Assembly (NCBI RefSeq): GCF_900156605.1 | Contig: NZ_FTOA01000003.1 | Span: 372,001-436,000 of the forward strand | From: Insolitispirillum peregrinum | GTDB taxonomy: Bacteria > Pseudomonadota > Alphaproteobacteria > Rhodospirillales > Rhodospirillaceae | Reading direction: 5' to 3' | Length of the DNA stretch: 64,000 bases | In this document: positions 5,677 through 40,553 of the stretch, piece after piece | How positions within the stretch are numbered: position 1 is the stretch's first letter | Layout of the letters: each line of letters starts with the position of its first letter | The notes under the pieces: generated by a model | Seen by the model: only the letters and a program-made list of their open reading frames with translations | Told to the model about the DNA's origin: nothing | Databases searched by the model: none | Translations under genes and position numbers: made by a program

Positions 5677-6814
5677 GAGCACGCCCTTGGACCGGCCTTT
5701 TTCTTCGTCCTCTGCCCACGCTGGTGGACTGTTGACCGTTGATCTGGGGGCGGTGGCCGACAACTGGCGTCATATGGCCGCGCTGATGGGGGCCAAAGAG
5801 GCCGCCGGAGTGGTCAAGGCCAATGCTTATGGACTGGGGGTGGAGGCTGTCGGGCGGGTGCTGGCGGCGGCTGGCTGCCGGACGTTCTTTGTGGCGGTGC
5901 CCGAGGAAGGTGTCCAGCTGCGCAAGGTGGTGCCCGGAGCGGTGATTTATGTCCTGTCCGGCCCGATTGGCAGCAGCGAGGGACTGGCTCCGTTCCTGAA
6001 GTCCAATCTGCGGCCTATTCTGAACTGTGCTGATCAGGTGGCCCTGTGGCGGTCCCATGCCCCGGGGGCGGCACCCTATGGCCTGCACCTTGAAACCGGG
6101 ATGAACCGGCTTGGGTTGCCGGAATTCGAAGCGCGGGCGATGGCGACCAATCTGGCGCCGTCGCTGGTGATCAGTCATCTTGCCTGTGCCGACGTGCCCA
6201 ATCATCCGTTGACCGAAGAGCAGTTGCGGGCCTTTACCGAATTACGGTCGCTGTATCCGACGGCGCGGGCCTCTCTGGCCAATTCGGCGGGTGTCATGCT
6301 GGGCCGTGACTATCATTTTGACCTTGCCCGTCCCGGACTGGCCCTGTATGGCGGCAATCCGTTGCCGCATCTGCCCAATCCTTTGGCGCAGGTTCTGACC
6401 TTGCAGCTCAGGGTGTTGCAGGTTCGTCGCGTTGACACCCCCCAGAGCGTTGGCTATGGTGCCACCTACCGGGCGCCTGCAGGGACTGTGCTGGCGACGG
6501 TGGCCGCGGGCTATGCCGATGGCCTGCTACGCTCGCTGGGCAATTCGGGTTGGGGGTTGCTGGGGGGAGTCCGTGTTCCGGTGGCTGGCCGGGTGTCGAT
6601 GGACCTGATCACGTTCGACGTGAGCGAGGCTCCGTCGCAAGCCGTGTACAGCGGGGCGCTGATTACCCTGATCGGGCGGGAAACGGCGGACAGCACAGAA
6701 CAGGCGCATACCCTTGATGAGCTGGCCACCGAAGCCGGAACGATTCCTTACGAACTGCTGACCTCCCTCAGCCGTCGTTATGCTCGCCGCTATGTGGGAG
6801 GCGCCGGTTCATGA
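5669..6814 (+). CDS. alr: Alanine racemase
   Basis: PLP enzyme of about 381 residues converting L- to D-alanine for peptidoglycan. The PLP lysine lies in VVKANAYGLG, and the second-subunit tyrosine region GYGATYRAPAGTVLATVAAGYADG is present, as is the C-terminal TIPYELLTSLSRRY. I place the start at the ATG at 5669, which overlaps the dnaB stop; an in-frame ATG at 5645 would lengthen the overlap. Ends in an ATGA overlap with the next gene. Confidence 0.95.
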   Translation: MNESTPLDRPFSSSSAHAGGLLTVDLGAVADNWRHMAALMGAKEAAGVVKANAYGLGVEAVGRVLAAAGCRTFFVAVPEEGVQLRKVVPGAVIYVLSGPIGSSEGLAPFLKSNLRPILNCADQVALWRSHAPGAAPYGLHLETGMNRLGLPEFEARAMATNLAPSLVISHLACADVPNHPLTEEQLRAFTELRSLYPTARASLANSAGVMLGRDYHFDLARPGLALYGGNPLPHLPNPLAQVLTLQLRVLQVRRVDTPQSVGYGATYRAPAGTVLATVAAGYADGLLRSLGNSGWGLLGGVRVPVAGRVSMDLITFDVSEAPSQAVYSGALITLIGRETADSTEQAHTLDELATEAGTIPYELLTSLSRRYARRYVGGAGS

Positions 6815-17391: not shown

Positions 17392-18660
17392 TCAGGCGAA
17401 CAGCGTCTGCACGGTGTGCAGCGCCTTCAACAACTGGTCGATGTCATCCTTGTTGGTGTAAACGCCAAAGCTGGCCCGGGCCATCGCCGGGACGCCACAG
17501 CGGTCCATCAGCGGCTGGCAGCAATGGTGCCCGGCGCGAATGGCGACGCCCGCCCGGTCGAGGACGGTGGCAATGTCGTGGGGATGGGCATAGCTCATCG
17601 AAAAGGCGATGATGCCGCTTTTCCCCGGTGCGGTGCCGTGCAGGGTCAGTCCGTCGATGGCCTGCATGCCGTCGATGGCATAGGCCAGCAACGCTTCCTC
17701 GTGCTCCAGCGCGGCGGCATGGTTGATCGACCGCACATAATCAACGGCGGCCCCCAGACCGATGGCCTGCACGATGGCCGGGGTTCCGGCTTCGAACTTG
17801 GCGGGCAGGGCGGCCCATTCCGAGGCTTCGAAGGTCACCGACGAGATCATGTCGCCCCCGCCCATCCACGGCGGCATGCGGTCAAGCAGAGCTTCGCGGC
17901 CCCACAGGATGCCGATGCCGGTCGGGCCATACAGCTTGTGCCCGGAAAAGGCGTAAAAGTCGCAGCCCAGAGCCTGCACATCGACCGGACGATGGACAAT
18001 CCCCTGACAGCCATCGACCAGCACAATGGCCCCGGCAGCATGGGCCTTGGCGGCGATTTCCGCCACCGGCAGCACGGTGCCCAGCACGTTGGAGACATGG
18101 GCGATGGCGACCAGTCTGGTGCGATCGGTCAACAGCGCCTCGAAGGCCTCCATGTCAAAGCGGCCGTCGTCGGTGATCGGCACCACCTTCAGCACCAGCC
18201 CCTTGTCATCGCGGACCATCTGCCACGGGACGATGTTGGAATGATGTTCCAGAGCCGAAATGATGATCTCGTCACCGGGCTTCAGCAAACTGCGGGCGTA
18301 GGTTTGCGCCACCAGATTGATGGCTTCGGTCGCGCCACGGGTAAAGATCACCTCGCAGTCATCGGCGGCATTGATGAAGGCACGCACCTTGCTGCGGGCG
18401 GCTTCGTAGTTCTGGGTTGCCGTTTCCGACAGCCAATAAGCCCCACGATGGACGTTGGCATATTCGTGTTCATAGGCGTTGCGCATGGCATCCAGCACCG
18501 CCAGCGGCTTTTGCGCCGACGCACCAGAGTCAAGATAGGCCAGCCGCTTGCCGTGAACCTGCGAGGTCAGGATCGGAAAATCGCGGCGCACCGCTTCGAC
18601 ATCAAAGACTGTCGTTGCGAGATCGGAACGAAGGCTGTCAGACACTGCGATACCCATCAT
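17392..18660 (-). CDS. sufS: Cysteine desulfurase SufS
   Basis: PLP enzyme of about 422 residues that supplies sulfur to the SufBCD scaffold. Motifs: YLDSGASAQKP near the N-terminus, THVS-equivalent IAHVSNVLG, PLP-lysine region FYAFSGHKLYGPTGIG, and RAGHHCCQPLM holding the active-site cysteine of the group II enzymes. The ATG at 18660 overlaps the sufD stop as ATGA, so I prefer it over the upstream ATG at 18687. No SufE gene is visible in the window. Confidence 0.95.
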   Translation of the reverse strand: MMGIAVSDSLRSDLATTVFDVEAVRRDFPILTSQVHGKRLAYLDSGASAQKPLAVLDAMRNAYEHEYANVHRGAYWLSETATQNYEAARSKVRAFINAADDCEVIFTRGATEAINLVAQTYARSLLKPGDEIIISALEHHSNIVPWQMVRDDKGLVLKVVPITDDGRFDMEAFEALLTDRTRLVAIAHVSNVLGTVLPVAEIAAKAHAAGAIVLVDGCQGIVHRPVDVQALGCDFYAFSGHKLYGPTGIGILWGREALLDRMPPWMGGGDMISSVTFEASEWAALPAKFEAGTPAIVQAIGLGAAVDYVRSINHAAALEHEEALLAYAIDGMQAIDGLTLHGTAPGKSGIIAFSMSYAHPHDIATVLDRAGVAIRAGHHCCQPLMDRCGVPAMARASFGVYTNKDDIDQLLKALHTVQTLFA

Positions 18661-19991
18661 GCCACCTCTTGCCGTGCATCCAGCCATGCTCGCACCAGTC
18701 CGGCCAGCACGGTGCGAATGGCGTCGTTTTCCACCTGTTCGACCACGTCATCAAGGAACCCCTCGATCAGCAGGTCGCGGGCGGTGGCTTCGTCCAGACC
18801 GCGGGCGCGCAGATAGAACAGTGCCTCGTCATCCAGCTCGCCACAGGCGGCCCCGTGCGAACAGGTCACGTCATCGGCGTAAATCTTCAGCTCGGGCTTG
18901 ACGTCAACCTCGGCGCTTTCCGACAGCAGCAGGGCTTTGTGCAACTGCTGACCGTCGGTGTGCTGCGCCCCCTTGCGGACGGTGACCTTGCCCTGAAAGA
19001 CTCCGCGGCCATGGTCGGCCAGAACGCCCTTGTAGACCTGCGACGAGCGGCCATTGGGGACGGCGTGATCCATGTGGATGGTGGTGTCCATGTGCTGGTA
19101 GTCACGGGCGGCATAGGCCCCGTTCAGATGGGCTTCGGCCTGTTCGCCCGCCAGTTCGACGGCGATGTCATCACGGGCAACCGCACCACCGAGCGACAGG
19201 GCAAACGCCTGATAAATCCCACCGGCCAGCACCTTGACCGTGCGGCTGGCAACATGCAGGGCCCTGGCGGTGTCGTTGCGAACCTTGACGTGAGTCAGGC
19301 GGGCGTTGGGCTCGACCAGAATTTCGGCCACCGGCAGCGACAGGGTTTCGGTTTCGCCCAGCGCGACATGGCTTTCCAGAATGGTGGCGGTGCTGCCCGC
19401 TCCGGCCTTGATCAGCAGGCGGGGCTGGGCCATCACCGGCGCGTCGCCCGGGGTCAGGGTGATCGAAACGATGTGCAAGGGGCGGTCAATGACCGTTCCG
19501 GCCTCCAGCAGGACCACCACGCCATCATCAACCAGACCACTGGCCAGCGCGGCAAACGGCTGTTCGTCATACTGCACCAGACTGCCCAGCAGGCCTTCCA
19601 GCCGTTCGGGCTGACGGGCGAGCAGGCTGGCCAGCGGCTGCACCTCAACCCCGGCAGGCAGGGCGGCGCGGTCAGACAGGTGCGGGGCATAGGAGCCGTT
19701 GAGCAGCACCACCTTGTGGCCGTCAAAGGCGGGCAGCGCGGCGGGCAGGGCTTCCAGCGTGGCATCACCGGCGATCAGGGCGGGCACGAAGTCGAGTTTG
19801 CCCACCACCCCAAGGGCGGCAAAGCTGTACTTGAAGGCTTCGGTGCGGCGATGGGGCAGGCCCTGCTGCTGAAAGGCAGCCAGTGCCGCCTGACGCAGAC
19901 CGGTCAGCCACGGCAGATGACCACCGGGCAGCACCGGCGACAGGCCGGTGGCGGCCGTCACCACGGGAATTTCAGACAGAACGACGGACAT
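18657..19991 (-). CDS. sufD: Fe-S cluster assembly protein SufD
   Basis: Scaffold subunit of 444 residues, related to SufB and part of the SufBC2D complex. The C-terminal beta-helix ends with the family signature: KPELKIYADDVTCSHGAACGELDDEALFYLRARGL. The frame is open 42 codons upstream, but ATG 19991 follows GGAAGGAAG and gives the usual length. 28 bp after sufC. Confidence 0.95.
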   Translation of the reverse strand: MSVVLSEIPVVTAATGLSPVLPGGHLPWLTGLRQAALAAFQQQGLPHRRTEAFKYSFAALGVVGKLDFVPALIAGDATLEALPAALPAFDGHKVVLLNGSYAPHLSDRAALPAGVEVQPLASLLARQPERLEGLLGSLVQYDEQPFAALASGLVDDGVVVLLEAGTVIDRPLHIVSITLTPGDAPVMAQPRLLIKAGAGSTATILESHVALGETETLSLPVAEILVEPNARLTHVKVRNDTARALHVASRTVKVLAGGIYQAFALSLGGAVARDDIAVELAGEQAEAHLNGAYAARDYQHMDTTIHMDHAVPNGRSSQVYKGVLADHGRGVFQGKVTVRKGAQHTDGQQLHKALLLSESAEVDVKPELKIYADDVTCSHGAACGELDDEALFYLRARGLDEATARDLLIEGFLDDVVEQVENDAIRTVLAGLVRAWLDARQEVA

Positions 19992-20019
19992 CGGCGGTTC
20001 TTCCTTCCTTATCCGGCGA

Positions 20020-20772
20020 TCAGGCGGCGCTGACGTAATCGGCATAGCCCTTGGCTTCCAGCTCTTCGGCCAGCTCCGGGCCACCGGAGCGGACGATCTT
20101 GCCACCGGCGAACACATGCACCACGTCCGGCACGATGTAGCTCAGCAGGCGCTGATAGTGGGTGATCACCAGGAACGAGCGGTCGGCGGTGCGCAGGCTG
20201 TTGACGCCTTCGGACACCACACGCAGGGCGTCAATGTCCAGCCCGGAGTCGGTTTCGTCGAGGATGGCAAACTGCGGCTGCAGCAGGGCCATCTGGAGAA
20301 TGTCGGCGCGCTTCTTTTCCCCGCCCGAGAAGCCGACGTTGACCGGCCGCTTCAACATGTCGTCGCGGATGCCCAGTTCCTTGGCCTTGCCTTTGACCAG
20401 CTTCAGGAATTCCATCGCGTCGATTTCGCCCAGCCCCTGAAAGCGGCGCTTGGCATTGATGGCGGCCTTGAGGAAGGTCGAGCTGGCAACGCCGGGGATT
20501 TCCACCGGGTACTGGAAGGCAAGGAAAATCCCGGCATTGGCCCGCTGGTCGGGTTCCATGTCGGCGATGTCCTCGCCGTTGAGCAGGATGCGGCCTTCGG
20601 TCACCTGATAGCCCGGACGGCCGGAGATGATGTTCGACAGGGTGGATTTTCCGGTGCCGTTCGGCCCCATCAGGGCGTGGACGGTGCCGGGTTCGATTAC
20701 CAGATCAACACCCTTCAGGATTTCTTTGCCATCAACGGAGGCATGCAGGTTTTGAATCTCGATCAGAGCCAT
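20020..20772 (-). CDS. sufC: Fe-S cluster assembly ATPase SufC
   Basis: ABC-type ATPase of 250 residues that drives the SufBCD scaffold. Walker A GPNGTGKSTLSNIISG (about 35-50), the SufC-type signature VGFSGGEKKRADILQM and Walker B AILDETDSGLDIDAL are all present. ATG 20772 gives the typical N-terminus ALIEIQNLHASVDGK. Lies between sufB and sufD. Confidence 0.97.
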   Translation of the reverse strand: MALIEIQNLHASVDGKEILKGVDLVIEPGTVHALMGPNGTGKSTLSNIISGRPGYQVTEGRILLNGEDIADMEPDQRANAGIFLAFQYPVEIPGVASSTFLKAAINAKRRFQGLGEIDAMEFLKLVKGKAKELGIRDDMLKRPVNVGFSGGEKKRADILQMALLQPQFAILDETDSGLDIDALRVVSEGVNSLRTADRSFLVITHYQRLLSYIVPDVVHVFAGGKIVRSGGPELAEELEAKGYADYVSAA

Positions 20773-20809
20773 CGTTTGAGTACCTTTTGTTCCCGACTGT
20801 TCCGTTGCG

Positions 20810-22261
20810 TTAACCAACGCTGCCTTCGAGGGAAATGTTGACCAGTTTCTGCGCCTCAACGGCGAATTCCATCGGCAGGGTTTGCAGGACTTCCTTGCAG
20901 AACCCGTTGACGATCAGGCCCACCGCTTCTTCGGCCGACAGGCCGCGCTGCATGCAGTAGAACAGTTGATCGTCGGAAATCCGGCTGGCGGTTGCTTCGT
21001 GTTCGGTGCGGGCCGACGGGTTGCGGCTTTCGATATAGGGCACGGTGTGGGCACCGCACTGATCGCCGATCAACAGGCTGTCGCACTGGGTGAAATTGCG
21101 GGCGCCGCTGGCCTTGGCGGCGATGCGCACCTGTCCGCGATAGGTCTGTTCCGAGCGACCGGCGGAAATGCCCTTGGAGATGATCTTCGAGCGGGTGTTC
21201 TTGCCCAGATGGATCATCTTGGTGCCGGTATCGGCCTGCTGGCGGTTGTTGGTGATGGCGACCGAATAGAATTCCCCGACCGAGCCGTCGCCCTGCAGGA
21301 TGCAGGAGGGGTATTTCCAGGTGATTGCCGAGCCGGTTTCGACCTGGGTCCACATCACCTTGGAATTGCGGCCACGGCAGGCGGCGCGTTTGGTGACAAA
21401 GTTATAGATGCCCCCCTTGCCGTTTTCGTCGCCGGGATACCAGTTCTGCACCGTCGAGTACTTGATTTCGGCATCGTCCAGCGTCACCAGTTCGACGACG
21501 GCGGCGTGCAACTGGTTTTCATCGCGCTGCGGGGCGGTGCAGCCTTCCAGATAGGACACATAGGCGCCCTCGTCGGCGATGATCAGGGTGCGTTCAAACT
21601 GCCCGGTGTTCTTTTCGTTGATGCGGAAATAGGTCGACAGCTCCATCGGGCAGCGCAGGCCCTTGGGGATGTAGACAAAGCTGCCATCGGTGAACACCGC
21701 CGAGTTCAGGCAGGAAAAGAAGTTGTCCGCCTGCGGCACCACCGAGCCAAGGTACTTCTGCACCAGCTCGGGGTGTTCGCGGATCGCCTCGGAGATCGAG
21801 CAGAAGATCACGCCCAGATCGTTGAGCTTCTTTTTATAGGTGGTGGCAACCGACACGCTGTCGAACACCGCATCGACGGCCACACCTGCCAGCGCTTCCT
21901 GTTCCTTCAGCGGGATGCCCAGCTTTTCATAGGTGGCGAGAAGCTCGGGGTCCACTTCGTCGAGGCTCTTCGGGCCATCTTCCCGCCGCTTGGGGGCGGC
22001 ATAATAATAGCTGTCCTGATAGTCGATCGGCGGATAGTGCAGACTGGCCCACTGCGGTTCTTCCATCGTCAGCCAGTGGCGATAGGCTTTCAGGCGCCAT
22101 TCGAGCATCCATTCCGGCTCTTCCTTTTTGGCCGAGATGAAGCGTACGATGTCTTCGCTCAGGCCCTTGGGCGCGCGGTCGGATTCGATGTCCGTCTCGA
22201 AACCGTATTTATAACGCTCGATATCCTTGACGGTTTGGATGGTGCTTTCGGTGGCCACCAT
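20810..22261 (-). CDS. sufB: Fe-S cluster assembly protein SufB
   Basis: Scaffold subunit of 483 residues where the cluster is built. Typical segments are [52 protein letters not shown] and the C-terminal [23 protein letters not shown]. Start at ATG 22261 after AAGGAC. The reading frame itself stays open upstream through the 27-bp repeats into iscR, but without the family sequence. Confidence 0.97.
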
Positions 22262-22343
22262 GACGGAGGTCCTTCTTTCGCTAGCGGCGACGGTCTTGCT
22301 GACCGCACGATCTTGTGTTCCAGACAGAAAATTCAGTAAACCC

Positions 22344-22421
22344 TCAGGCGGATGCCGGTACGACAAACCTTCAGGCGGATGCCGGTACGACAAACCTTCA
22401 GGCGGATGCCGGTACGACAAA
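22344..22421. repeat. Three tandem 27-bp repeats spanning the end of iscR
   Basis: Unit TCAGGCGGATGCCGGTACGA plus CAAACCT occurs at 22344-22370, 22371-22397 and (24 bases) 22398-22421. The third unit is the last eight codons of iscR with its stop; the other two lie just after it, so the in-frame TGA is repeated three times at 27-base spacing. It looks like slippage or duplication of the gene's end. Confidence 0.92.
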
Positions 22422-22832
22422 AAGCGGCCTGTCCTGTGCCATGTCGGCCAGGGTGACTTCGGACAGGGCGCGGTGGACGGCGTTGTTGACCCGGTTCCAG
22501 TGACCATGCATCGGGCACAGGGCCTCGATGCCGCACTCTTCATCGGGCGAGGTCTCGACGCACGAGGTCAGGGCGATCGGGCCTTCGATGGCCTGAATCA
22601 TGTGGGCAACGGTGATCTCGCGCGGGGCGCGTCCCAGCCCATAGCCACCAGCCGCCCCACGGATCGACTGCACCAGCCCGTCCTTGGCCAGCAGCTTCAT
22701 GATCTTGGCAACGGTCGGCAGGGGGACGCCGGTATCGGACGCAATCTGCTGCGCCGAACGGACGCAGCCGGTGCGGGCCATGTCGACCAGCAGCGCGACG
22801 GCGTAATCGGTGAGCTTGTTGATGCGGAACAT
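22398..22832 (-). CDS. iscR: Rrf2-family Fe-S cluster regulator (IscR/SufR-like)
   Basis: Regulator of 144 residues, first gene of the suf operon. The winged-helix N-terminus [22 protein letters not shown] is typical, and three cysteines ([16 protein letters not shown], about 95-110) can bind a [2Fe-2S] cluster, so it should sense Fe-S status and control the operon. Start at ATG 22832 behind GGGGGTA. The C-terminus is duplicated downstream as tandem repeats. Confidence 0.93.
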
Positions 22833-29739: not shown

Positions 29740-29773
29740 AAGCTCCGCCTGTTGCTTCAGGCGGGGCTTTTTT
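29740..29773 (+). terminator. Rho-independent terminator of hemA
   Basis: 12-bp stem AAGCTCCGCCTG/CAGGCGGGGCTT (one G-T pair) with a 6-base loop, followed by TTTTT. It overlaps the 3' end of the convergent kinase gene. Confidence 0.85.
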
Positions 29774-32765
29774 CCGCCTGCTTCACCAGACTTTGAATCC
29801 GTGCGGTCAGCTCTGACAGGTTGACCGGCTTGGACAGGAACGCAGAACAGCCTGCCATCTCTGCCCGCTGGCGGGTCTGCGGGGTGGCATCGGCGGTCAG
29901 GACGATCACCGGGATGCGGCACAGGTCGGGGCGCTGTTTCAGGCGGGTCAGCACCTCCAGCCCCGACATGTCCGGCAGGTTGATATCCAGAATGATCAGG
30001 GCCGGGCGCAGCCTTTCCGCCATCTCCAGGCCTGCTGCGCCTGTCTGCGCTACGGCAAGCGACAGGCGTGTAAATTCACTGAACATCAGTTCCATCAAGG
30101 CGATGTTGGCCGGATTGTCTTCGATGTACAGGGTCAGCCCGTCGGCATCAATGGCATGCTGGCTGAGATCTGCACCGGGGAGCAGGCTGGGGGCGCTGGT
30201 TGTGTCAGGCTGGGTGGGCAACTGGAATTCCAGCCAGAACCGGCTGCCCTGACCGGCAATGCTGTTGAAACCAATCTGGCCATGCATGATTTCCATCAAG
30301 GTCTTGCTGAGGGCCAGGCCGACGCCAGTACCTTCGATGTCGGACAGTTCTGCGCCCAGCCGGGAGAACGGCTGGAACAACTGCGCCTGCTTTTCGGCCG
30401 GAATGCCAAAGCCGCAGTCTTCGATCACCAGACGATAGTGGCTGTCATGGTATTCGCCGAACAGGCGGATGATTCCGTTGGGGCGGTTATACTTGGCGGC
30501 ATTGGACAACAGGTTCACCACCACCTGTTTGGCGCGGGTGGGGTCGGCCATGATGCAGGGCATGGTGGCCGGATCCTGACAGTCAACGGTCACCGCAGCA
30601 TTTTCGATGTAGCGGGAGGCCAGCACCAGAGCTTCCTGCACCACGGTTCCCAGGGCGGTTGGTTCGACCGACAGCGACATTTTGCCTGCTTCGATCTTTG
30701 CCAGATCAAGGACTTCGTTGATCAGGCTCAACAAATGCTCCCCACCCTTCAGGATGTAGTTCAATTGCCTGCGCTGCAGGTCGGTGACGGGGACTTTGGG
30801 GTTGCTGAGCATCAACTGGGCAAAGCCAAGGATGGCGTTCAGCGGGGTGCGTAGTTCGTGGCTCATGTTGGACAGGAAGGTGCTCTTGGCCTTGCTGGCT
30901 TCGACGGCGTGGTGATGGGCCTCTTCCAGTGCGCGCGTCCGGGCCAGTTCCTGTGTATGGTCCTGAAACACATTGAAGATGAACTGGGCACCGCTGTGTT
31001 CTTCGGTGATCACCCCCAGATTGCTGGCAGAGATGAACGAACTGCCGTCTTTCCGGCGTACCGGCAACAGACCCCGCCACGATTGCCCGCGCGCCAGCGC
31101 AGAACAAATTTCCCGATGCAGTGGCTCGGTGTCGTCAGTCCACACCCAACTGATCGTGTTATTGCCGAGATCGTCATTGGTGAAGCCGGTCATCCGTTCC
31201 CGCGCCGGGTTGCCGTACAGATAACGCCCGTTGCTATCGAGGATGCTGACACCTTCGTCGGTGGCCTCGATGATCCGGCGGAAGATTTCCAGCTGCCGTT
31301 GCGCTTCCATCATGCGGGTGATGTCGGTGTGAATCGAGATGTAGCGGATGCCGGTGGTATCATCGGAATGGGTCGGACAGATGGTGGTCTGCAACCAGTA
31401 CAACTGGCCAGTCTTGCTCTTGTTGCACAGAACGCCCTGCCAGATTTTGCCCTGCAGCAGGGACTCCCACAAATCCTGATAGAACTGGGGAGAATGGCGG
31501 CCGGACTTGAGCAGACGGTGGGATTGCCCCAACAGCTCGGTCCGGTCATAGCCACTGCTCTGGCAGAACTGGTCATTGCAATAGGCGATGGTGCCGCTGG
31601 CATCGGTCATGCTGATGATCGAATGGGCATCAACCGTGCGCAACAGGTCCTGCAACTCGGCGGTCCGTTGCTGCACCAGCGTCTCGATGGCATTGCGTTC
31701 CGAGTGCAGGCGGGACAGCAGGTCGGCAAACGAGCGTGACAGCGACGCCGTTTCCCGGAACTGGCTGCAGGGGGGAATGTCCTGGCCATCGCGGATCGCG
31801 CTTTCCAGCATTTCGATCGGACGTGCCAGATAGCGGGCCAGCAGGATGGCGGCAATGATTGCCAACAGGATGATACCACCCGAGACCATGAACAGGGCTT
31901 TTTGCAACGGGCTGATCAGGGCGAAAATGTCGGCTTTTTGGGCTTCGAGGACCACTGACCATCGTAGGCCGGGTTGGTGCTGGGCGGGGGGAGCGTGGGC
32001 GATGGCGGACAGGATGCCGCCCGGGCTTTCCCAGAGCGTGCCATCCTGAGCAGGCAGGCTGTGGGATAACAGGCTGCCCAGCCGGTCATGCGGCCCCTGA
32101 ATGATTTGCCCCTCGCTGTCGACGATCAGAATGGTGTAGCGACCGTTGTTTTCAAAGGGCCGCAGCGCATCATTGGCCCACGCCCAGCCGAGATGAACCG
32201 AAAAGACCCCGGCAAGAGTCTGCTCCGGGGTGCGCAGGGGAAAGGCAAAATCGATCAGCGGCATGTTCTGGCCGGCAATGGGCGAGACGCTGCGTTGTTC
32301 GGCATCCTGTGCGGCCCCCATATAGGGAACCGACTGGGCGCCCTTGAACCAGGGCCGCTGCACCACCGAGGCACCTTCGAGGAATTTCGGGTTGGCATGG
32401 CGGATAATGCCATCCGGCGAGGTGACCGATATCCACGGTTGTTCCTGAAAGGCGTTTCTGAACAGGGTCAGGGTGGTGGCGATCACGTCGGGGGACAGGT
32501 CACTGCGCTGAAGAAAGATGGCCGCCGCCGCCGCATCGCGAAAATGGGTCCTGAGCTGCCGTTCCACCCGGTCGCGGGCCTGCAAGGTGGTTGAACGCAG
32601 GTTTTCGACCGCCTCATCCTGCAGCGAGTGGCTGACGATCTGTGTTGCCGCCAGAAAAAAGGCAAAACAGCTCAGGATCGCCAGCAGCAAGGTTGCGAGC
32701 AGGACGGCGCGTCGGAGGGATAAGGGATTTGAGCCTGTGAAGCGTGGGGGGGCAGGGAAGCTCAT
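29757..32765 (-). CDS. Hybrid sensor histidine kinase/response regulator with periplasmic Cache-like sensor
   Basis: Protein of 1002 residues. Order: helix (about 18-41), periplasmic sensor resembling a double Cache domain (about 45-280), helix (about 291-311), HAMP-like linker, PAS (about 370-490), PAS (about 492-605), HisKA with phospho-acceptor His636 (MSHELRTPLN), HATPase (ENPANI-preceding region, GTGVGLALSKTL), and a receiver (about 880-995) with IILDINLPDMSG and the LTAD and KPV switch residues. No output domain, so a partner regulator or phosphotransfer protein is needed. Downstream of the electron-conduit operon on the same strand but separated by its terminator; a link to respiratory control is a guess. 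Confidence 0.9.
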   Translation of the reverse strand: MSFPAPPRFTGSNPLSLRRAVLLATLLLAILSCFAFFLAATQIVSHSLQDEAVENLRSTTLQARDRVERQLRTHFRDAAAAAIFLQRSDLSPDVIATTLTLFRNAFQEQPWISVTSPDGIIRHANPKFLEGASVVQRPWFKGAQSVPYMGAAQDAEQRSVSPIAGQNMPLIDFAFPLRTPEQTLAGVFSVHLGWAWANDALRPFENNGRYTILIVDSEGQIIQGPHDRLGSLLSHSLPAQDGTLWESPGGILSAIAHAPPAQHQPGLRWSVVLEAQKADIFALISPLQKALFMVSGGIILLAIIAAILLARYLARPIEMLESAIRDGQDIPPCSQFRETASLSRSFADLLSRLHSERNAIETLVQQRTAELQDLLRTVDAHSIISMTDASGTIAYCNDQFCQSSGYDRTELLGQSHRLLKSGRHSPQFYQDLWESLLQGKIWQGVLCNKSKTGQLYWLQTTICPTHSDDTTGIRYISIHTDITRMMEAQRQLEIFRRIIEATDEGVSILDSNGRYLYGNPARERMTGFTNDDLGNNTISWVWTDDTEPLHREICSALARGQSWRGLLPVRRKDGSSFISASNLGVITEEHSGAQFIFNVFQDHTQELARTRALEEAHHHAVEASKAKSTFLSNMSHELRTPLNAILGFAQLMLSNPKVPVTDLQRRQLNYILKGGEHLLSLINEVLDLAKIEAGKMSLSVEPTALGTVVQEALVLASRYIENAAVTVDCQDPATMPCIMADPTRAKQVVVNLLSNAAKYNRPNGIIRLFGEYHDSHYRLVIEDCGFGIPAEKQAQLFQPFSRLGAELSDIEGTGVGLALSKTLMEIMHGQIGFNSIAGQGSRFWLEFQLPTQPDTTSAPSLLPGADLSQHAIDADGLTLYIEDNPANIALMELMFSEFTRLSLAVAQTGAAGLEMAERLRPALIILDINLPDMSGLEVLTRLKQRPDLCRIPVIVLTADATPQTRQRAEMAGCSAFLSKPVNLSELTARIQSLVKQAEKSPA

Positions 32766-33004: not shown

Positions 33005-35278
33005 TCACCACTTGATTTTGGCTGTTGCCATCAGGACGCCGACGTCATAGCTGGGGTCGCCTGTTCCGCTGATCAGAACGGTCTGGCTGGTGGTGTTGCT
33101 GGTCGAGGCGGCTTCCTGCACATTCAGATAATCCTTCGACATCAGGTGTTCCCACTGCCCGGTCAGACCGAGGGTGATGCCGTCTTCGACCTCGTACTCC
33201 CCGCTCAGGCGCAGCGAGTTCTGGATGGTCAGGGTATCGGGCAGATCGGTGCCGGTGTTGGTCGCCGTCGGAGAGGCGGTGTTGCGCTGGCGGCTGGTGA
33301 TGCCATAGGTGGTGCGGGCAAAGGACAGCGAGTCATCCAGACTGAGCTTCACCTTCGGGTTGAACTGCCACTCGATGCCAGTGCCAACGGTGTGGATATC
33401 GTCCGAAGTTTGCAGTTTCCAGTCCACACCCGTGTTGGCCGAGCTGGAATTGATTTCCAGCGCACTGCCGACTTCCTGATAGCTGTAGAACAGGTGGGTA
33501 TTGATCCCGCTGACCGGGGTATAGCCAACATCAATGCTGCTGACCAGAAAGTGGTCCTTGGTCACGCCATAGACCACATCAGGGTAATTGTTGTCGGTAT
33601 AGCTGACCGATCCGGTCAGCGACAGTTCGGGTTGGATGGCCCAGGTGACGCTGCCCTTGACCTGATCCTGCAAGCGGTCGGTGTAGTTGTAATGCGACAA
33701 CTCCCGCTCGGCGGTGGTGGTGCGGCCGACGTAATTCCAGGCCAGATTGCCGTTGTAATCCTGCGCATCGCGGAACGCCCGACCAACGCTGAAATCTGCC
33801 GAGACATCCTTGCCGAACGCCGAGCGTACTTTCAGTTCACCCCGGTCTTCGGTGTTGCGGTTGGTAACCGAGTATTCGCGTTGCTTGTCGGTATGGGTAA
33901 ATGTCCCGGACAGGCGGGTATCTTTGGTCAGGCGATAGCCGCTTTCCAGCTCGGCGGACTGGTTCAGGAAAGAATAGGGGGTTACGGTCTTGATCCCGCC
34001 CGACCCGTTCCAGGTGGCGGTGCCGGTATCACCGCGATAGGACGGCGACAGGGTATAGGATGGCGAGTTGTTGTCGCGGTGATCAACGGTGTAGGCAGCC
34101 TTGACCGTCCAGTCATTGGCCAGCCGGTCACTGTAGACCAGATTGGCGAAATGGTTCTGGATCAGGCCATCGTAATGGGTGCCGTCAACGCGCGAGGTTC
34201 CGGCTTCGTAATAGCGGGCGGTATAGGACTCGTTCTGTATCTGGGCACTGACACGGGTGTTCAGGTTCAGGCGGCCATAGGTCCCAACGTTCAGACCGGC
34301 TTCGCCCTTCAGCATATGTTCAGTGTTGCTGGGCGGTAATGAGTACTGCGAGCCAGTGTAGTTGGCCCGGGTGGTGCCGATGAATGGACTGGAACCGACC
34401 CATTGCTGCTGGGTGTTGGTAAAGCTGGAAAAGACGTAGCTCAGTTGTGCCTGAAACAGCTTGCGGGTATAGGCGGCGGTTGCGCTGATGCGGTCGGTAT
34501 CGTACTGAACCGGTTCGAGGAAGGCGGCAAAGTAGTTGTTGTTGATGAACATGAACGAGTTGCTTTTGGTGCCCTGCTTGTGTTCATGGTCAATCTTGGT
34601 GGTGAAATTCCAGTTGGCGATGCCCTTGTAGGAAAACGAGCCGTCAACCCGGTCGCGGCGGGTGCCGACCTGTTCGACGGCCAGATATTGCGAGGCCCGC
34701 GCAATCCCGGCGGCATTGGTCGAGGTGGTGTTGATCGACTTGGCGGCAAGGCCGTTCTGCAACGAGCCATCGCTGCGGAACAGGGTGTGGTAGTTGTCGG
34801 TTTCGATATAGGGCGTGCCCTGATAGTTCAGCCTGGCGGTCCATGTGCCTTGCTGACCCATCTTCAGGCGGGCTTCGCCGTCTTCCAGCAGCTCGTGCGA
34901 GCCGAGGTCGATGTTGCGGGCGTCAAAGGTGACAAAGAAGGTGCCATCATCCTTTTTGACCGTCCGGTCTTCCAGATGGACCCAGCCTTTGGACACCATC
35001 CCGGCCTTGTCCGAGCCGGAGAAGCGGCCATACATCCCGGAACTGCCCTGCTGATAGCCAACGGCCATCCCGGCTTCGTTGACGGTGACCGGCTTGTCGG
35101 ACTCCGGCTTTTCCTTGCTGCTGTCGGCGGCGCTGCCCTCGGCAGCCGGTTCATCCAGTCCGAAATCATCGGCAGACGCCGGACCGGCGGCAAGGGGTGT
35201 CAGGCAGGTTGACGCCAGCAACACCCAGCCTTTGCTCCAGCGGGCCAATCCCCGGCGGAGTGAGATAGAGGTGATCAT
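33005..35278 (-). CDS. MtrB/PioB family decaheme-associated outer-membrane barrel
   Basis: Protein of 757 residues with a signal peptide ending PASA|DD (about 36), followed by a Glu/Ser-rich linker and a long series of alternating aromatic/polar strands, ending in an aromatic-terminated strand (LMATAKIKW). MtrB/PioB proteins form a large barrel that sheathes a decaheme cytochrome and lets electrons cross the outer membrane. Unlike Shewanella MtrB, no CXXC is present in the mature protein, as in PioB-type members. Last gene of the operon; its partner cytochrome gene is 152 bp upstream, with a palindromic repeat between. Confidence 0.88.
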   Translation of the reverse strand: MITSISLRRGLARWSKGWVLLASTCLTPLAAGPASADDFGLDEPAAEGSAADSSKEKPESDKPVTVNEAGMAVGYQQGSSGMYGRFSGSDKAGMVSKGWVHLEDRTVKKDDGTFFVTFDARNIDLGSHELLEDGEARLKMGQQGTWTARLNYQGTPYIETDNYHTLFRSDGSLQNGLAAKSINTTSTNAAGIARASQYLAVEQVGTRRDRVDGSFSYKGIANWNFTTKIDHEHKQGTKSNSFMFINNNYFAAFLEPVQYDTDRISATAAYTRKLFQAQLSYVFSSFTNTQQQWVGSSPFIGTTRANYTGSQYSLPPSNTEHMLKGEAGLNVGTYGRLNLNTRVSAQIQNESYTARYYEAGTSRVDGTHYDGLIQNHFANLVYSDRLANDWTVKAAYTVDHRDNNSPSYTLSPSYRGDTGTATWNGSGGIKTVTPYSFLNQSAELESGYRLTKDTRLSGTFTHTDKQREYSVTNRNTEDRGELKVRSAFGKDVSADFSVGRAFRDAQDYNGNLAWNYVGRTTTAERELSHYNYTDRLQDQVKGSVTWAIQPELSLTGSVSYTDNNYPDVVYGVTKDHFLVSSIDVGYTPVSGINTHLFYSYQEVGSALEINSSSANTGVDWKLQTSDDIHTVGTGIEWQFNPKVKLSLDDSLSFARTTYGITSRQRNTASPTATNTGTDLPDTLTIQNSLRLSGEYEVEDGITLGLTGQWEHLMSKDYLNVQEAASTSNTTSQTVLISGTGDPSYDVGVLMATAKIKW

Positions 35279-35338: not shown

Positions 35339-35435
35339 CTAGAGCGTTTTCACACTGAGCGAAAACGCTCTCCATTTTTCATGCCGCATTTTCCGAGCCG
35401 TTGACCGGAGACGGTCAACTTGAAAATGCTCTAAT
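35339..35435. repeat. Palindromic intergenic repeat (GAGCGTTTTC / GTTGACCG type)
   Basis: Two hairpins: GAGCGTTTTC..GAAAACGCTC (35342-35370) and CCGTTGACCG GAGA CGGTCAAC (about 35398-35419), with outer CTAGAGC and GCTCTA ends. This type of palindrome is familiar as a dispersed non-coding repeat in alphaproteobacteria. The right end overlaps the stop codon of the decaheme gene. It could stabilise or attenuate mRNA between the cytochrome and the barrel gene. Confidence 0.7.
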
Positions 35436-36489
35436 GCGTCAACATCCCGCCCGATGGCGCACTGGAGCCGTGCACCTTGGAGTGACAGTTGCTGCACCCG
35501 CTGGACAGCAGCATGTTGTAGCTGCCGACACCGCTGCCGCCGGGCAACTGGTTGCCCCCGGACAACAGGGCATCATGGCTGTTGCGGCTGGTCTGGTGGC
35601 AGGTCATGCACAGGAACGGATCGCGCATGGTCAACAGGTGTTTCTGGGTCGAGCCATGCGGCGTGTGGCAGGTCATGCAGTCGTCGCGCACCGGCTCGTG
35701 TTCCCAGATGAACGGACCGCGCTGTTCGGCATGACAGGTGTAGCAGGTTTCGTTGGTGGTCATTTCGGTCAGCAGCGACGGCCCGCCCGAGCCGTGGACG
35801 GCGTGGCAGTCGGAACAACTGACCTTGCCTTCCTTGATCGGGTGATGGCTGAACGCCTGCGCTTCGCCGCGCTGCTGGGCATGGCAACTGAAACAGACTT
35901 CCGGCTGGGTCATCTTGTCCATCACCGGGTCCTGCGTGGTGTGCAGGGTGTGGCAATCGGTACAGGCGACATCGGCCTGCTGGTGCTTGGAGCCGGGCCA
36001 GTTGATATGTTCTTCGCCCAGATGGCACGACCGGCAGACCTCGTTGCGCTTGTCAACCGGCGAGGCCAGCGGTTCCTTGAACGACACATCGACCGGCGGC
36101 CGTTTTTCGCCCTTTGGCGGACGGGCGTTGTTGTGCTCGTCGCTGGGGCCGTGGCAGCTTTCGCAGGCATGGTTGGCCATCGGCGAGGTCGGGTCGTCCT
36201 TCACCCCGTGGGCTGTCTTCATAATGGTGCGATCGGTGACGGTATCGTGACACTTGATACAGGTCTGCTCGCCCCTGGCGGCCCAGGTGATGGCATCATC
36301 GGCGGGCTTGGCAGGCTTGTCGGCATCCAGCGGAGACGCCGGAGCCACCTCGCGCACCCAGCGTGACGATTGCCCGGTGGGGAACGGCTCGGCGGCGATG
36401 GCGTGGCCGAACCACGCTCCAACGGCAAAGGTCAGGGTATAGGCCAGCAGCAACAGGGCTGTGGCCTTTAAAACGTGGCGCGCTGTCAT
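35431..36489 (-). CDS. Periplasmic decaheme c-type cytochrome (MtrA/DmsE family)
   Basis: Protein of 352 residues with an N-terminal export signal or anchor (about 8-30, ending in AIAAEP) and ten CXXCH sites: CIKCH, CESCH, CRSCH, CTDCH, CFSCH, CSDCH, CYTCH, CMTCH, CMTCH, CSNCH. Number and size match MtrA/DmsE/PioA-type wires that thread through an MtrB/PioB barrel. The barrel gene follows on the same strand, supporting a cytochrome-porin conduit. No DMSO reductase genes (dmsAB) are in the window, so the substrate is open. Confidence 0.92.
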   Translation of the reverse strand: MTARHVLKATALLLLAYTLTFAVGAWFGHAIAAEPFPTGQSSRWVREVAPASPLDADKPAKPADDAITWAARGEQTCIKCHDTVTDRTIMKTAHGVKDDPTSPMANHACESCHGPSDEHNNARPPKGEKRPPVDVSFKEPLASPVDKRNEVCRSCHLGEEHINWPGSKHQQADVACTDCHTLHTTQDPVMDKMTQPEVCFSCHAQQRGEAQAFSHHPIKEGKVSCSDCHAVHGSGGPSLLTEMTTNETCYTCHAEQRGPFIWEHEPVRDDCMTCHTPHGSTQKHLLTMRDPFLCMTCHQTSRNSHDALLSGGNQLPGGSGVGSYNMLLSSGCSNCHSKVHGSSAPSGGMLTH

Positions 36490-36497
36490 GGCAGGTC

Positions 36498-37448
36498 CTA
36501 TTGCTTGGCGGCGATGAGATCAGCGGTGCCTTGCCCGAGGGCGAAGGTGTATTCATACGAGGTGTGATGGAACCGCTTGTCGGAATGGCCGACGTGGACC
36601 GAAATGCCAAAGGTATAGGGCTTGCCTTCGACCAGCGGACGCCACGGCGCCGGAGCGGCCAGCGGACGCTGCATCACCACCGTCCAGGTGCCATCGGCAT
36701 AGCTGGCGGTCGAGGTCAATTGTCCCGGCAGTTCGGCGCGGGTATCAAAAATCTCGCCACCGATGGCTTCGGCCTTGTTCGGCGGGGTCAGGCGGGCCTG
36801 CCACCATTCCTGCATGTAACCGGCAGCCTTCAGTTCGGCCAGATCGGCATCGGGCTTCAGGGCATCGCCGCCACCGGCGCGGGTCAGCTTGGCGCGGGTC
36901 TTCATCAGGTATTTGGTGCGGTTGGCACCGTTGGCGGTGGGCATCGAGCTGTTGTCTTCGTGGCAACTGGCCCAGCAGCCAGCGCGCACGCCTTCCTTGA
37001 CCGCTTCATCGTTAAAGATGATCGCCACCTTGGTCGGGGCCTTGGGGTCCATCCTGGTATCGGGCGAGGCCGGTTCCTTGAACTGGAAGCGGATATAGAA
37101 CGCGCTGGCGTCATAGGCCATCTTGACGTTCGACACCACATGGCCGGGGAAGCTGGGGATCGGGGTTGGTTCGGCTTTTTTGCCCGACACCATCAGGTCG
37201 CCCTGGGTCTTTTCTTCGCCAGCATGGCAGGCAATGCAGTTCTTGCCCGCCTTGAATTTATCGGCGGCGGAATGGTCGGCGGTGGTCAGGTTCCATTCCC
37301 ACGACGTTTGTCCGGGATAGAGCATCACGATGTCCTTGCCCGGCACGCTGGACCAGTCGATGGCCAGCGCGGGCGAGGCGAATGCGACCGGAGCCGCTGC
37401 CAGCAGGAGGCCGCTCGCGCTGTATTTGAGAAGATCAGTGATGTTCAT
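36498..37448 (-). CDS. Ethylbenzene-dehydrogenase-related heme-binding protein with an added c-heme site
   Basis: Periplasmic protein of about 316 residues; signal peptide ends near SPALA|ID (29). It has one canonical CXXCH (CIACH, 71-75) and a second CWASCH at 158-163, which has three residues between the cysteines. The body (PGHVVSNVKMAYDASAFYIRFQFKEP and the C-terminal PYTFGISVHVGHSDKRFHHTSYEYTFALG) fits the EB_dh/cytochrome c-552-DMSO-reductase-like domain, the heme b-binding gamma subunit fold. Between the inner-membrane fusion protein and the decaheme wire, so a periplasmic electron carrier is likely. ATG 37466 is an alternative start. Ends 8 bp before the decaheme gene. Confidence 0.8.
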   Translation of the reverse strand: MNITDLLKYSASGLLLAAAPVAFASPALAIDWSSVPGKDIVMLYPGQTSWEWNLTTADHSAADKFKAGKNCIACHAGEEKTQGDLMVSGKKAEPTPIPSFPGHVVSNVKMAYDASAFYIRFQFKEPASPDTRMDPKAPTKVAIIFNDEAVKEGVRAGCWASCHEDNSSMPTANGANRTKYLMKTRAKLTRAGGGDALKPDADLAELKAAGYMQEWWQARLTPPNKAEAIGGEIFDTRAELPGQLTSTASYADGTWTVVMQRPLAAPAPWRPLVEGKPYTFGISVHVGHSDKRFHHTSYEYTFALGQGTADLIAAKQ

Positions 37449-39480
37449 TTGCACAACCTCTGTCAAAAAAAGCCGAACGGATGCGAAACGCAGGACGCCC
37501 CGCTGGAGTCAGGGAGTTCGGACTAAAGGATTTCTGTTCAGGACCTGACCGGATGGAGAGCGGGCGCATGGCCCGGCGTTTTTTCCACCACACAAACGGC
37601 GCGTGGCTGAGGTGATGGAGCAGGTAGCAGGTGACCAGCACCGCAAAGGCCATGTGCGCCAGCGCGACCCAGGCGGTGGAGCGGACGGCGGCAAACTGGT
37701 GCGGGATCAGCTCGGGCCACCAGAACACCAACCCGCTGGCGACGATCAACGGGACAAAGGCGAACATCGCCACGCTGTCGAGGCTCCACGACCAGCGGCG
37801 CTGGTAGATCAGGGTCAGGGCGATGAACACCAGAAAGCCGACACTGACTGCCAGCCCGGACCATTCATGCAGGTCCGCCGACCATTCGATGCCGACCAGA
37901 TTGAACGGCGAGTGCGGGAAGTGCAGCGCCAGTCCGGTGAGCAGCAGCAGGCTCATCAGGGTTGAATGCACCCGGTGCCACCAGGTGAAGCCCCGCCGCA
38001 TGGCATGGGTGCGCTGTTCGAGGGCGGCAATCTCGGCGCTGCTGTCGCGTCCGAGGGTTTCGTCCAGCAGGCGGGCCAACTGCGGCACGCACTGCCCGCA
38101 GGTGGCCCCGGCGCGGGTGGCGGTGGTCAGTTGCGGGACGGTGGTCAGCCCCTGATCGCGGATGGCCGCTTGCAGGCTGTCACGGGTGAGGGCGGCGCAC
38201 TGGCAGATGATCATCTCGCCGCTGGTGGCCTCGACCGCTCCGTGCAGAACCGACCGCTCGCACAGGTGGCCGACATCGCTGCCGCTGGCGATCCAGTGGC
38301 TGAGCTGGCTGCTGTTGCCGGTTTCGCCGATCAGCACCGCCGACAGCACCCGACCGGCGTGCAGCACCACCTTTTTATAAATGCCCTCGTCCGGCTGGTG
38401 GTGGACCAGCGGGCGGCGTTCGGGGTGGTCTTCGTCCGGGGCGGCTTCCCCGCCACAGAACACCGCCAGCGAGGGGATTTTCAGCACGGTGGACTGCGCG
38501 GCAACTGTGAACGGGGCGGGGGTACCGTCGTGCAGAACCTCGGCCAGAACGGTCGCCATGTCGTACAGCGGGCGGACCAGCCCAAAGGTCTGGCCGTCGA
38601 ATTCGACGCATTCGCCCAAGGCAAAAATGCCGGGGTGCGAGGTGCGCAGATGGCCATCCACCAGCACGCCGCGCCCGACGTTCAGACCACAGTCTGCCGC
38701 CAGCGCGGTATGGGGCCGGATGCCGACCGCCACCACCACCAGATCGGCGGGCAGCGTCTCGCCCGAGGTCAGGGCAACCCCTTGCACCCTGCCGTCACCG
38801 TGCAGGGCGCTGGCCTGAGTGTCCGTCAGGCAGCGGATGCCGTGGCGGTCCAGATGATCGGCAATCATCGTGCCGGCGGTGGCATCGACCAGTCGTTCCA
38901 TCAGGGTGGCGGCCATGTGCACCACCGTGACATCCATCCCGCGCTGCTTCAGGCCCCAGGCGGCTTCCAGCCCCAGCACTCCGCCGCCGATCACCACCGC
39001 GTGCCGGTGCTGTTGTGCCGCCGCCAGCATCGCTTCGACATCGCGCAGCGAGCGGAAACTGACCACATTGCCCAGCCCGATCCCCGGCAGCGGCGGCATG
39101 ATGGCATCGGCTCCGGTGGCCAGCACCAGCCGGTCCCAGCGGTCCGTATGACCGCTGGCGGTGCGCAGGCTGCCGCCCTGCTGATGGGCGTCCGGGGAGC
39201 TGTGGTCGGGCAGGATATGCACCACCGCATCGCCTTGATGCAGGGTGATGCCGCGCTCGGCATACCATGACGCCGGGTGCGTATGGATTTGCTCGGGGCT
39301 TTTGTCTCCGGCCAGCAGCGACGACAGATGGACGCGGTTATAACCCGCCACCGGCTCGGCGCCAAAAACGCTGATGCGGAAGGACCGGGTTGGCTGGCTG
39401 GTCAGCAGTTCCAGCAGGCGAACCGCCGCCATGCCGTTTCCGACCACCACCAGATGCGGTAAAGACGCAGGCGTGCTCAT
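37435..39480 (-). CDS. Fusion: NirB-like FAD oxidoreductase + BFD-type [2Fe-2S] + cytochrome b membrane domain
   Basis: Protein of 681 residues. Residues 8-400 are a pyridine-nucleotide-disulfide-type flavoprotein: FAD motif VVVGNGMAAV (11-20), NAD(P) motif VVIGGGVLGLEAA (162-174) and the FAD-contact LGECVEFDG (about 288). Residues 424-470 are a BFD-like domain with Cys426, Cys428, Cys461 and Cys464. Residues 500-630 hold about four transmembrane helices with paired histidines (His502, 505, 520, 538, 609, 622, 623) suited to heme b, like cytochrome b561. No sulfite/nitrite reductase domain follows. Predicted to move electrons between NAD(P)H and the periplasmic cytochromes encoded beside it. 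ATG overlaps the heptaheme stop (TGATG); its end overlaps the next gene. Confidence 0.82.
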   Translation of the reverse strand: MSTPASLPHLVVVGNGMAAVRLLELLTSQPTRSFRISVFGAEPVAGYNRVHLSSLLAGDKSPEQIHTHPASWYAERGITLHQGDAVVHILPDHSSPDAHQQGGSLRTASGHTDRWDRLVLATGADAIMPPLPGIGLGNVVSFRSLRDVEAMLAAAQQHRHAVVIGGGVLGLEAAWGLKQRGMDVTVVHMAATLMERLVDATAGTMIADHLDRHGIRCLTDTQASALHGDGRVQGVALTSGETLPADLVVVAVGIRPHTALAADCGLNVGRGVLVDGHLRTSHPGIFALGECVEFDGQTFGLVRPLYDMATVLAEVLHDGTPAPFTVAAQSTVLKIPSLAVFCGGEAAPDEDHPERRPLVHHQPDEGIYKKVVLHAGRVLSAVLIGETGNSSQLSHWIASGSDVGHLCERSVLHGAVEATSGEMIICQCAALTRDSLQAAIRDQGLTTVPQLTTATRAGATCGQCVPQLARLLDETLGRDSSAEIAALEQRTHAMRRGFTWWHRVHSTLMSLLLLTGLALHFPHSPFNLVGIEWSADLHEWSGLAVSVGFLVFIALTLIYQRRWSWSLDSVAMFAFVPLIVASGLVFWWPELIPHQFAAVRSTAWVALAHMAFAVLVTCYLLHHLSHAPFVWWKKRRAMRPLSIRSGPEQKSFSPNSLTPAGRPAFRIRSAFFDRGCANEHH

Positions 39481-40553
39481 CAGCGGTCCTCCCTGTGGGA
39501 TGCCGGTGGGGTGGATGCAGGGGGCGACCGGCGCAGGCGACGCCACAGCAGGCGCAGCAGGATGGCCACCGCCGTCAGGCTGACCAGCGCCAGTGCCGAC
39601 AGTTCCAGCCACTGGTTGCGGTTGGCCCCCATCACATAGATTTCGCCCAGCCATGGCGCGTTGCGGAACCCGCCCCAGCCGTCATCGCTGTCGCGCAGCA
39701 TTTTCTTGTACAGACGCTTGCCCAGTTCACCGTCGTCGCTGTGACAGGCGGCGCAGTCGCGGACGGCCTTTTCCTTTGGCAGCACGGTGTGCGACAGGGT
39801 CAGTTCGGGAACCGGCGTGTGGCAGTCCATGCAGCGCACCTGCGCAAAGTGCAGGTCCTGTTCCGGCAGCCAGTCATGGGCAACCGCCATGTCCGGTCGC
39901 TTGTCCTTCGGTTTCCACTTGGCGTAGGTGGCGTCATCACCATGGCAGGTCAGGCACTGGGTGTTGTCCTGTTCGGTGGCCATGTGTGCCGAGCCGATTT
40001 TCGACGCCTTTTTCATGATGTGGGCTTCGTGGCACGACAGGCAGGTGAAGCTGGCCCCCAGTTCCTTGAAATGGACCGAAGCCTTGAATTCCGGCTCGAT
40101 GATTTTGGCCGGTTGCTGGTGGCACTCGATGCAGCCCTTGATCTTTTCTTTGGCCTTGGGCAGGTGCGGATAGGGCACATAGGCCTCGGTGTGGCAATCC
40201 TTGCAGGCCATCTTGCCGTGGTCGCCCATCTCGAAGCGGTGGGCGTCCTGGGTCAGGGTTGCCAGCAGCTTCAGGTCCATCCCGGCGCGCGGCGGGTTTT
40301 TCACCCCGTCCTCGCTGTGGCAGGACAGGCAGTCGGCGTTCCACTTCCTGATTTTGGCTGGCAGCTCCGGGTCGGCTTCGGTCAGGCCGAAGTCATCGCC
40401 GCCGCTGAAATCATCGCTGGCGGCCTCTTCGGCGCGGGCGGGCGCACTGCCAAACCCCTGCGGCAGCCCGCTGATCAGCAGGGTTGCCAGCAGAAAAAAG
40501 GCAACAAAAAAGGGTTTCGGCGCGATGCGCCGAAGGCGAAAGCCCTGAATCAC
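39480..40553 (-). CDS. Heptaheme c-type cytochrome with C-terminal membrane anchor
   Basis: Protein of 357 residues starting with GTG, 9 bases after GGGG. The signal peptide (about 15-41, APARA|EE) is followed by an Asp/Glu-rich start, then seven CXXCH sites (CLSCH, CKDCH, CIECH, CLSCH, CLTCH, CMDCH, CAACH) and a C-terminal helix (about 312-336) ending in basic residues, which would leave the hemes in the periplasm. It may act as the quinol- or heme b-linked acceptor that feeds the decaheme wire, in the position CymA or NrfH occupies elsewhere, but it is not an NrfH homologue by eye. First gene of the five-gene operon. Confidence 0.85.
   Translation of the reverse strand: MIQGFRLRRIAPKPFFVAFFLLATLLISGLPQGFGSAPARAEEAASDDFSGGDDFGLTEADPELPAKIRKWNADCLSCHSEDGVKNPPRAGMDLKLLATLTQDAHRFEMGDHGKMACKDCHTEAYVPYPHLPKAKEKIKGCIECHQQPAKIIEPEFKASVHFKELGASFTCLSCHEAHIMKKASKIGSAHMATEQDNTQCLTCHGDDATYAKWKPKDKRPDMAVAHDWLPEQDLHFAQVRCMDCHTPVPELTLSHTVLPKEKAVRDCAACHSDDGELGKRLYKKMLRDSDDGWGGFRNAPWLGEIYVMGANRNQWLELSALALVSLTAVAILLRLLWRRLRRSPPASTPPASHREDR

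Follow-up and report, generated by a model that had tools for sequence, protein, structure and literature searches.

A NirB-type flavoprotein fused to a b561-like membrane domain in an MtrAB operon of Insolitispirillum peregrinum: a possible quinone-bypassing feeder for extracellular electron transfer

What supplies electrons to a porin-cytochrome conduit when the gene at the usual place of an inner-membrane cytochrome b encodes something larger? The question is raised by a gene that lies among multiheme cytochrome genes in a 64,000-nucleotide stretch of the Insolitispirillum peregrinum genome (contig NZ_FTOA01000003.1, positions 372,001 to 436,000 of the forward strand), which is referred to below as the window. 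A preliminary description of this DNA had proposed that one polypeptide joins a NirB-like flavoprotein, a BFD [2Fe-2S] domain and a b561-like membrane domain, and that it serves as a single-protein gate through which electrons pass from NAD(P)H to the periplasm and the adjacent multiheme cytochromes. The features discussed here are listed in Table 1.

Table 1. The fusion gene, its domains and the neighbouring genes of the operon (positions are those of the window)
Feature	Residues	Position	Strand	Remarks
Heptaheme c-type cytochrome, 7 CXXCH, C-terminal transmembrane anchor		39480..40553	minus	directly upstream of fusion
Fusion gene (NirB-type FAD/NAD + BFD [2Fe-2S] + four-helix diheme b561)		37435..39480	minus	single ORF
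Pyr_redox_2	9-296	38593..39456	minus	Pfam, E 1e-51
Rubredoxin_C-like interface domain	330-399	38284..38493	minus	Pfam
Fer2_BFD [2Fe-2S] domain	424-474	38059..38211	minus	Pfam, E 6e-13
b561 (Ni_hydr_CYTB/FdnI/PhsC-type) membrane domain	496-636	37573..37995	minus	Pfam, E 7e-6
C-terminal tail of fusion	640-681	37438..37563	minus	non-conserved, non-coding-like composition
Periplasmic EB_dh-family diheme cytochrome, one CXXCH + one CXXXCH		36498..37448	minus	
MtrA-type decaheme cytochrome (DmsE family, 10 CXXCH)		35431..36489	minus	TIGR03508 295 bits, cut-off 192
MtrB/PioB outer-membrane barrel		33005..35278	minus	TIGR03509 429 bits, cut-off 240

The joined architecture is borne out by Pfam, which places Pyr_redox_2, Rubredoxin_C, Fer2_BFD and Ni_hydr_CYTB on one polypeptide in that order. 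The elements that had been described within it are all present, i.e., both nucleotide-binding motifs of the flavoprotein part (an FAD motif, GNGMAA, at residues 14-19 and an NAD(P) motif, GGGVLG, at 165-170), the C-x-C...C-x-x-C cluster (C426-x-C428 and C461-x-x-C464, with all four cysteines invariant among the aligned fusions and NirB proteins) and four helices bearing histidines. The Ni_hydr_CYTB (PF01292) match of the window protein reaches only 26.4 bits when taken alone, below the gathering score of 30.1, and 32.1 bits when adjoining pieces of the frame are included; in a homologue from a second genome (G231) all four Pfam domains lie above their gathering scores, the b561 domain with 55.4 bits against the same 30.1. 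NirB proteins, as represented by the equivalog model TIGR02374, resemble the fusion in having an FAD/NAD module followed by a BFD [2Fe-2S] domain, with about 40-46% identity over 480 residues, but possess a siroheme half where the fusion has a membrane diheme domain. The fusion matches this model over positions 1-483 of 794 only (390 bits, cut-off 578), and because the match stops there the siroheme half is absent; a membrane heme domain has indeed taken its place, as had been supposed. The possibility that the fusion is a true nitrite reductase was rejected, both because the siroheme/[4Fe-4S] half is missing and because a separate, longer NirB (open frame of 867 aa) is encoded elsewhere in the same genome.

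The reading frame is uninterrupted at the coordinates first given for it, with the addition that it lies on the minus strand, where it runs from an ATG at 39480 to a stop codon that ends at 37435 and comprises 681 codons plus the stop. Its ATG overlaps the stop of the preceding heptaheme cytochrome gene (TGATG), and at its 3' end it shares 14 bases with the beginning of the following gene. Third-position G+C is 0.80-0.96 across the fusion junction and remains coding-like up to the end of the membrane domain; it is 0.43 in the last 42 codons. The tail so marked has no counterpart in the G231 homologue and continues into the start of the next gene. Two findings had been named that would refute the fusion, a sequencing frameshift joining two genes and the absence of any conserved homologue of this architecture. 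The former is ruled out because the independent G231 homologue, which has the same layout, is encoded by a stop-free frame of 677 aa, and codon composition is coding-like through the junction in the window; the latter does not apply, as homologues with the same architecture exist, making three genomes in all.

These homologues were found by using the BFD and membrane domains as a query against 297 genomes of the order, which yielded two genomes besides that of the window, G231 and G286, both labelled with the genus name Magnetospirillum. The G231 copy is full length and stop-free, with about 49% identity to the window protein over its whole length, and the fusion is present in 2 of the 55 genomes of the G231 family. 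The G286 contig (G286:C59; our loci L047 and L042 are the same) is the Magnetospirillum sp. MAG record JACQAD010000387. In its copy the frame is broken between TM3 and TM4 (L047, about 6785-6791), through either an error of the draft or genuine decay. Beyond the order the searches had a narrower reach: in the class (385 genomes) and the phylum (398 genomes), a search at E 1e-12 with at most nine candidates scored per genome found the fusion in the window genome only, and none was found among the plasmids searched. A search of genome contigs with two short peptide patterns likewise led to a single contig with the fusion, JACQAD010000387.

The surroundings of the gene are conserved along with it. 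The window has the heptaheme cytochrome c first, then the fusion, the EB_dh-family cytochrome, MtrA and MtrB; G231 has the identical order throughout, and the MAG contig agrees up to its end, which falls inside the EB gene. In G231 the EB_dh-family gene beside the fusion is split over two frames by one break (L046, about 9642). Trees of the heptaheme gene, the EB gene, MtrA and the NirB part each place the fusion operons in one clade with support of 100/99 or better. The window's EB copy clusters with Magnetospirillum-family copies rather than with those of its own family, a grouping that suggests horizontal transfer. With a decaheme MtrA/DmsE and an MtrB/PioB barrel in one operon, the locus meets the definition of an Mtr-type porin-cytochrome conduit. 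No gene for an extracellular decaheme MtrC/OmcA was found in the operon or its immediate flanks, and the genome contains no NapC/NirT (CymA-type) homologue. The gene that directly follows MtrB in the same orientation (29757-32765) encodes a PAS-histidine kinase-receiver hybrid, which could possibly regulate the operon, and about 10 kb further down, also on the same strand, there are SUF iron-sulfur assembly genes (17392-22543) that comprise two of SufB/D type, an ABC ATPase and a class V aminotransferase.

The heptaheme cytochrome is far more widespread than the fusion, having homologues in 25 of the 297 genomes of the order. At about 20 other Rhodospirillales loci the gene directly downstream of it encodes a PhsC/FdnI-type cytochrome b that stands alone, is about 204 residues long and has no NirB part; the NCBIfam models nearest to it are the cytochrome b subunits of thiosulfate reductase, formate dehydrogenase and hydrogenase. 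Among the loci examined only the three fusion operons lack this adjacency, so that the pair of heptaheme c and cytochrome b can be regarded as the common module and the fusion as the exception. The pair resembles a split CbcL/MtrH/MtoC protein. At four of the Rhodospirillales loci (L071, L104, L109 and L115) it is found near an EB_dh-family cytochrome, MtrA and MtrB, in what is apparently a widespread split CbcL/MtoC-like module. Because some 20 related loci have a NirB-free cytochrome b in the same slot, the fusion is probably a derived replacement of the stand-alone partner, an evolutionary order that is inferred from comparison of the loci. In the tree of b561 domains long branches leave the fusions without a resolved position among the stand-alone partners; that they descend from the operon's own cytochrome b is therefore argued from gene position, a shared histidine (H520, below) and profile scores. 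Since the stand-alone proteins were mis-set on the N-terminus of the fusions in a full alignment, separate alignments were used for the comparison that follows.

The membrane domain of the fusion contains histidines H502, H520, H538, H609 and H622/H623. In an alignment with 1kqf_C and HyaC (4gd3), H502, H538, H609 and H623 fall on H18, H57, H155 and H169 of FdnI, which we take to be the FdnI heme ligands; the fusion thus has the four helices and the four ligand positions of the PhsC/FdnI/HyaC cytochrome b subunits (PF01292). Across the fusions and 23 stand-alone cytochrome b sequences, five histidines of the membrane domain are invariant. The fifth of them, H520 (37921-37923), lies where TM1 ends on the periplasmic side; all the stand-alone partners share it with the fusions, and it is absent from FdnI and HyaC. 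Where the fusions depart from the PhsC/FdnI type, apart from the NirB-BFD part added at the N-terminus, is in the cytoplasmic TM2-TM3 loop, which is 43 columns shorter than in the stand-alone partners. The Asn/Gln residues at the columns of FdnI N110/Q113 are deleted only in the fusions and are present in FdnI and in every stand-alone sequence aligned; HyaC keeps the Asn of the pair. Presumably N110 and Q113 line the quinone pocket beside the cytoplasmic heme of formate dehydrogenase N. The numbering of these residues was confirmed on the 1kqf_C sequence. In formate dehydrogenase N the menaquinone site has been placed near the low-potential heme, and this heme has been put at the negative side of the membrane (PMC4807273). 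It would appear from the alignments that the fusions have lost the presumed quinone-site loop of the b561 family. When predicted alone, the membrane domain has a pLDDT of 89, and its closest folds are FdnI (1kqf_C) and HyaC (6g94/4gd3, with 6g94_A sharing the best match with 1kqf_C), followed by superoxide oxidase. The full-length model has a mean confidence of 77.7; its flavin part resembles ferredoxin/NAD reductases in a fold search, and because confidence in its membrane part is low (about 38-62) it does not resolve how the BFD domain is placed relative to the cytoplasmic heme. From the positive charges that precede TM1 and follow TM4, the N and C ends are predicted to be cytoplasmic, and the fusion sequence shows no evident signal peptide.

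On balance we lean towards the view that the fusion works in the inner membrane as a transmembrane NAD(P)H:cytochrome c reductase that has lost its quinone-site loop and that feeds, along a path bypassing quinone, the heptaheme cytochrome, MtrAB and finally the outside of the cell. NAD(P)H would be oxidised at the FAD of the cytoplasmic NirB-type domain, and the BFD [2Fe-2S] cluster, which in NirB is directed to siroheme, would hand electrons singly to a cytoplasmic-side heme b (H502/H623). From there they would pass to a periplasmic-side heme b (H538/H609), to the heptaheme cytochrome c, which is anchored in the membrane and encoded by the preceding gene, to the EB_dh-family cytochrome and, by way of MtrA within the MtrB barrel, to the outside. 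By this account the NirB flavin/Fe-S module may have taken over from quinol as the electron source of a heptaheme-c/cytochrome-b pair, with loss of the quinone-site loop. Electrons would flow outward, which is downhill and along the membrane potential, and for that reason no energy would be conserved by the fusion protein itself; its putative role would be NAD(P)+ regeneration or the reduction of an external acceptor, e.g., Fe(III). In NADPH oxidases, too, interheme electron movement is helped by the membrane potential (PMC4807273). The gate first proposed for this locus thus remains the best reading, and it has gained support from the gene order in three genomes, the exchange with a stand-alone cytochrome b, the ligands kept, the loop lost and the lack of NapC/NirT. 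The cofactors, the choice between NADH and NADPH, the direction of flow, the partners, the MtrAB outlet and the physiological role are inferred only, no biochemical data being at hand. Against it count the restriction of the fusion to three genomes, one of them with a copy that is frame-broken in the membrane part, the lack of MtrC in the operon, the inward operation of other Mtr-like systems in iron oxidisers, the window b561 match that by itself is under the gathering score, and the unresolved BFD-heme placement.

The rival that survives best, although we consider it unlikely, is an NAD(P)H:quinone oxidoreductase anchored by its cytochrome b, with the heptaheme cytochrome fed from the b561 domain or from quinol. 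The b561 family normally works with quinones, and the stand-alone partners resemble PhsC/FdnI/HydC subunits; it is just the Asn/Gln loop at the FdnI N110/Q113 columns, present in all the stand-alone partners examined, that the fusions lack, although its loss leaves a quinone site elsewhere in the domain possible. Distinctly improbable, in our estimation, is electron uptake, whereby electrons from outside (Fe(II), minerals) would come in by way of MtrAB and the heptaheme cytochrome to reduce NAD(P)+ at the flavin. With ordinary Fe(II) couples, electrons in the periplasm would have to climb in redox potential to reach NAD+, and they would move against the membrane potential as well. Inward flow would accordingly be uphill twice, and the fusion shows no domain that couples it to an energy source, even though Fe(II) oxidisers do use Mtr/Mto/Pio conduits in the inward direction and two-way action has been proposed for CbcL/MtrH/MtoC proteins (PMC6295460). 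We give little credence to the idea that the NirB part serves some other acceptor, soluble or in the membrane (e.g., nitrite, NO, persulfide or flavin), while the b561 domain acts chiefly as anchor or accessory: NirB-like flavoproteins do use many acceptors, and ferredoxin, rubredoxin and persulfide reductases are all listed by the fold search, but the siroheme, rubredoxin and rhodanese parts that such reactions require are absent from the fusion, the invariant membrane histidines would be needless in a bare anchor, and linkage to the heptaheme cytochrome is consistent. A chance or degenerate fusion without function, for which its rarity, the broken MAG copy and the odd tail of the window copy could be cited, is hardly credible: two intact copies that are about 49% identical have every cluster and ligand residue, codon usage looks coding until the membrane domain ends, and the trees of several genes agree in grouping the fusion operons as one clade.

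How, then, does the NAD(P)H:cytochrome c reductase proposed here compare with known systems? The surveyed feeders of Gram-negative porin-cytochrome conduits (CymA, NetBCD, CbcL/MtrH/MtoC and ImcH) are quinol oxidases or quinone reductases, and the surveys of Mtr clusters (PMC8805035) and of CbcL/MtrH/MtoC (PMC6295460) describe quinone-linked inner-membrane modules and mention NADH in neither case. In the literature searched, subscription papers excluded, we found no inner-membrane module of the present kind, no NirB/BFD/b561 fusion and no quinone-independent, NADH-driven extracellular transfer. An inner-membrane feeder of a porin-cytochrome conduit is a known type, and what would be new is the changed electron donor, if the reading as a whole holds. 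For the fuller proposal, that a NirB module grafted onto a diheme b with its quinone site deleted wires NAD(P)H to MtrAB as a quinone-bypassing feeder for extracellular electron transfer, the chances seem to us about even. Were it true, extracellular electron transfer would be decoupled from the quinone pool and its proton pumping, and the protein would be a dedicated redox valve, and also a compact building block with which to wire cytosolic NAD(P)H to electrodes. The comparison also offers a natural experiment, in that the same heptaheme partner is paired with a stand-alone cytochrome b in relatives and with the NirB fusion in the window; because of this, loss of the Asn/Gln loop is a testable mark of the proposed change of donor.

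Like CymA/NapC and NetBCD (PMC8805035), the fusion would be the inner-membrane electron source of an MtrAB conduit, whereas those are quinol dehydrogenases. In CbcL/MtrH/MtoC, which are quinol/quinone oxidoreductases, a multiheme c and a HydC/FdnI-like diheme b likewise feed porin-cytochrome conduits (PMC6295460), but the c and b parts are on one polypeptide and here they are encoded by separate genes (39480-40553 and 37435-39480), and the b part has lost its quinone-site loop and is joined to a module that would oxidise NAD(P)H. In manner of working, the fusion would resemble NOX, SpNOX and the ferric reductases, which combine a cytoplasmic NAD(P)H-FAD module with two stacked hemes b and send electrons outward. 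The flavin module of NOX has an FNR-like fold that is unrelated to Pyr_redox_2. No ferric reductase-like transmembrane domain or FNR-like FAD/NADP domain is detected in the fusion, in which Pfam gives Pyr_redox_2 and Ni_hydr_CYTB instead. It thus differs from these enzymes in its unrelated flavin module, in an added [2Fe-2S] relay, in the family of its cytochrome b and in its acceptor, which is probably a cytochrome rather than O2, and if the proposed role is right it would be a bacterial counterpart of the NADPH oxidases that has been assembled from unrelated parts.
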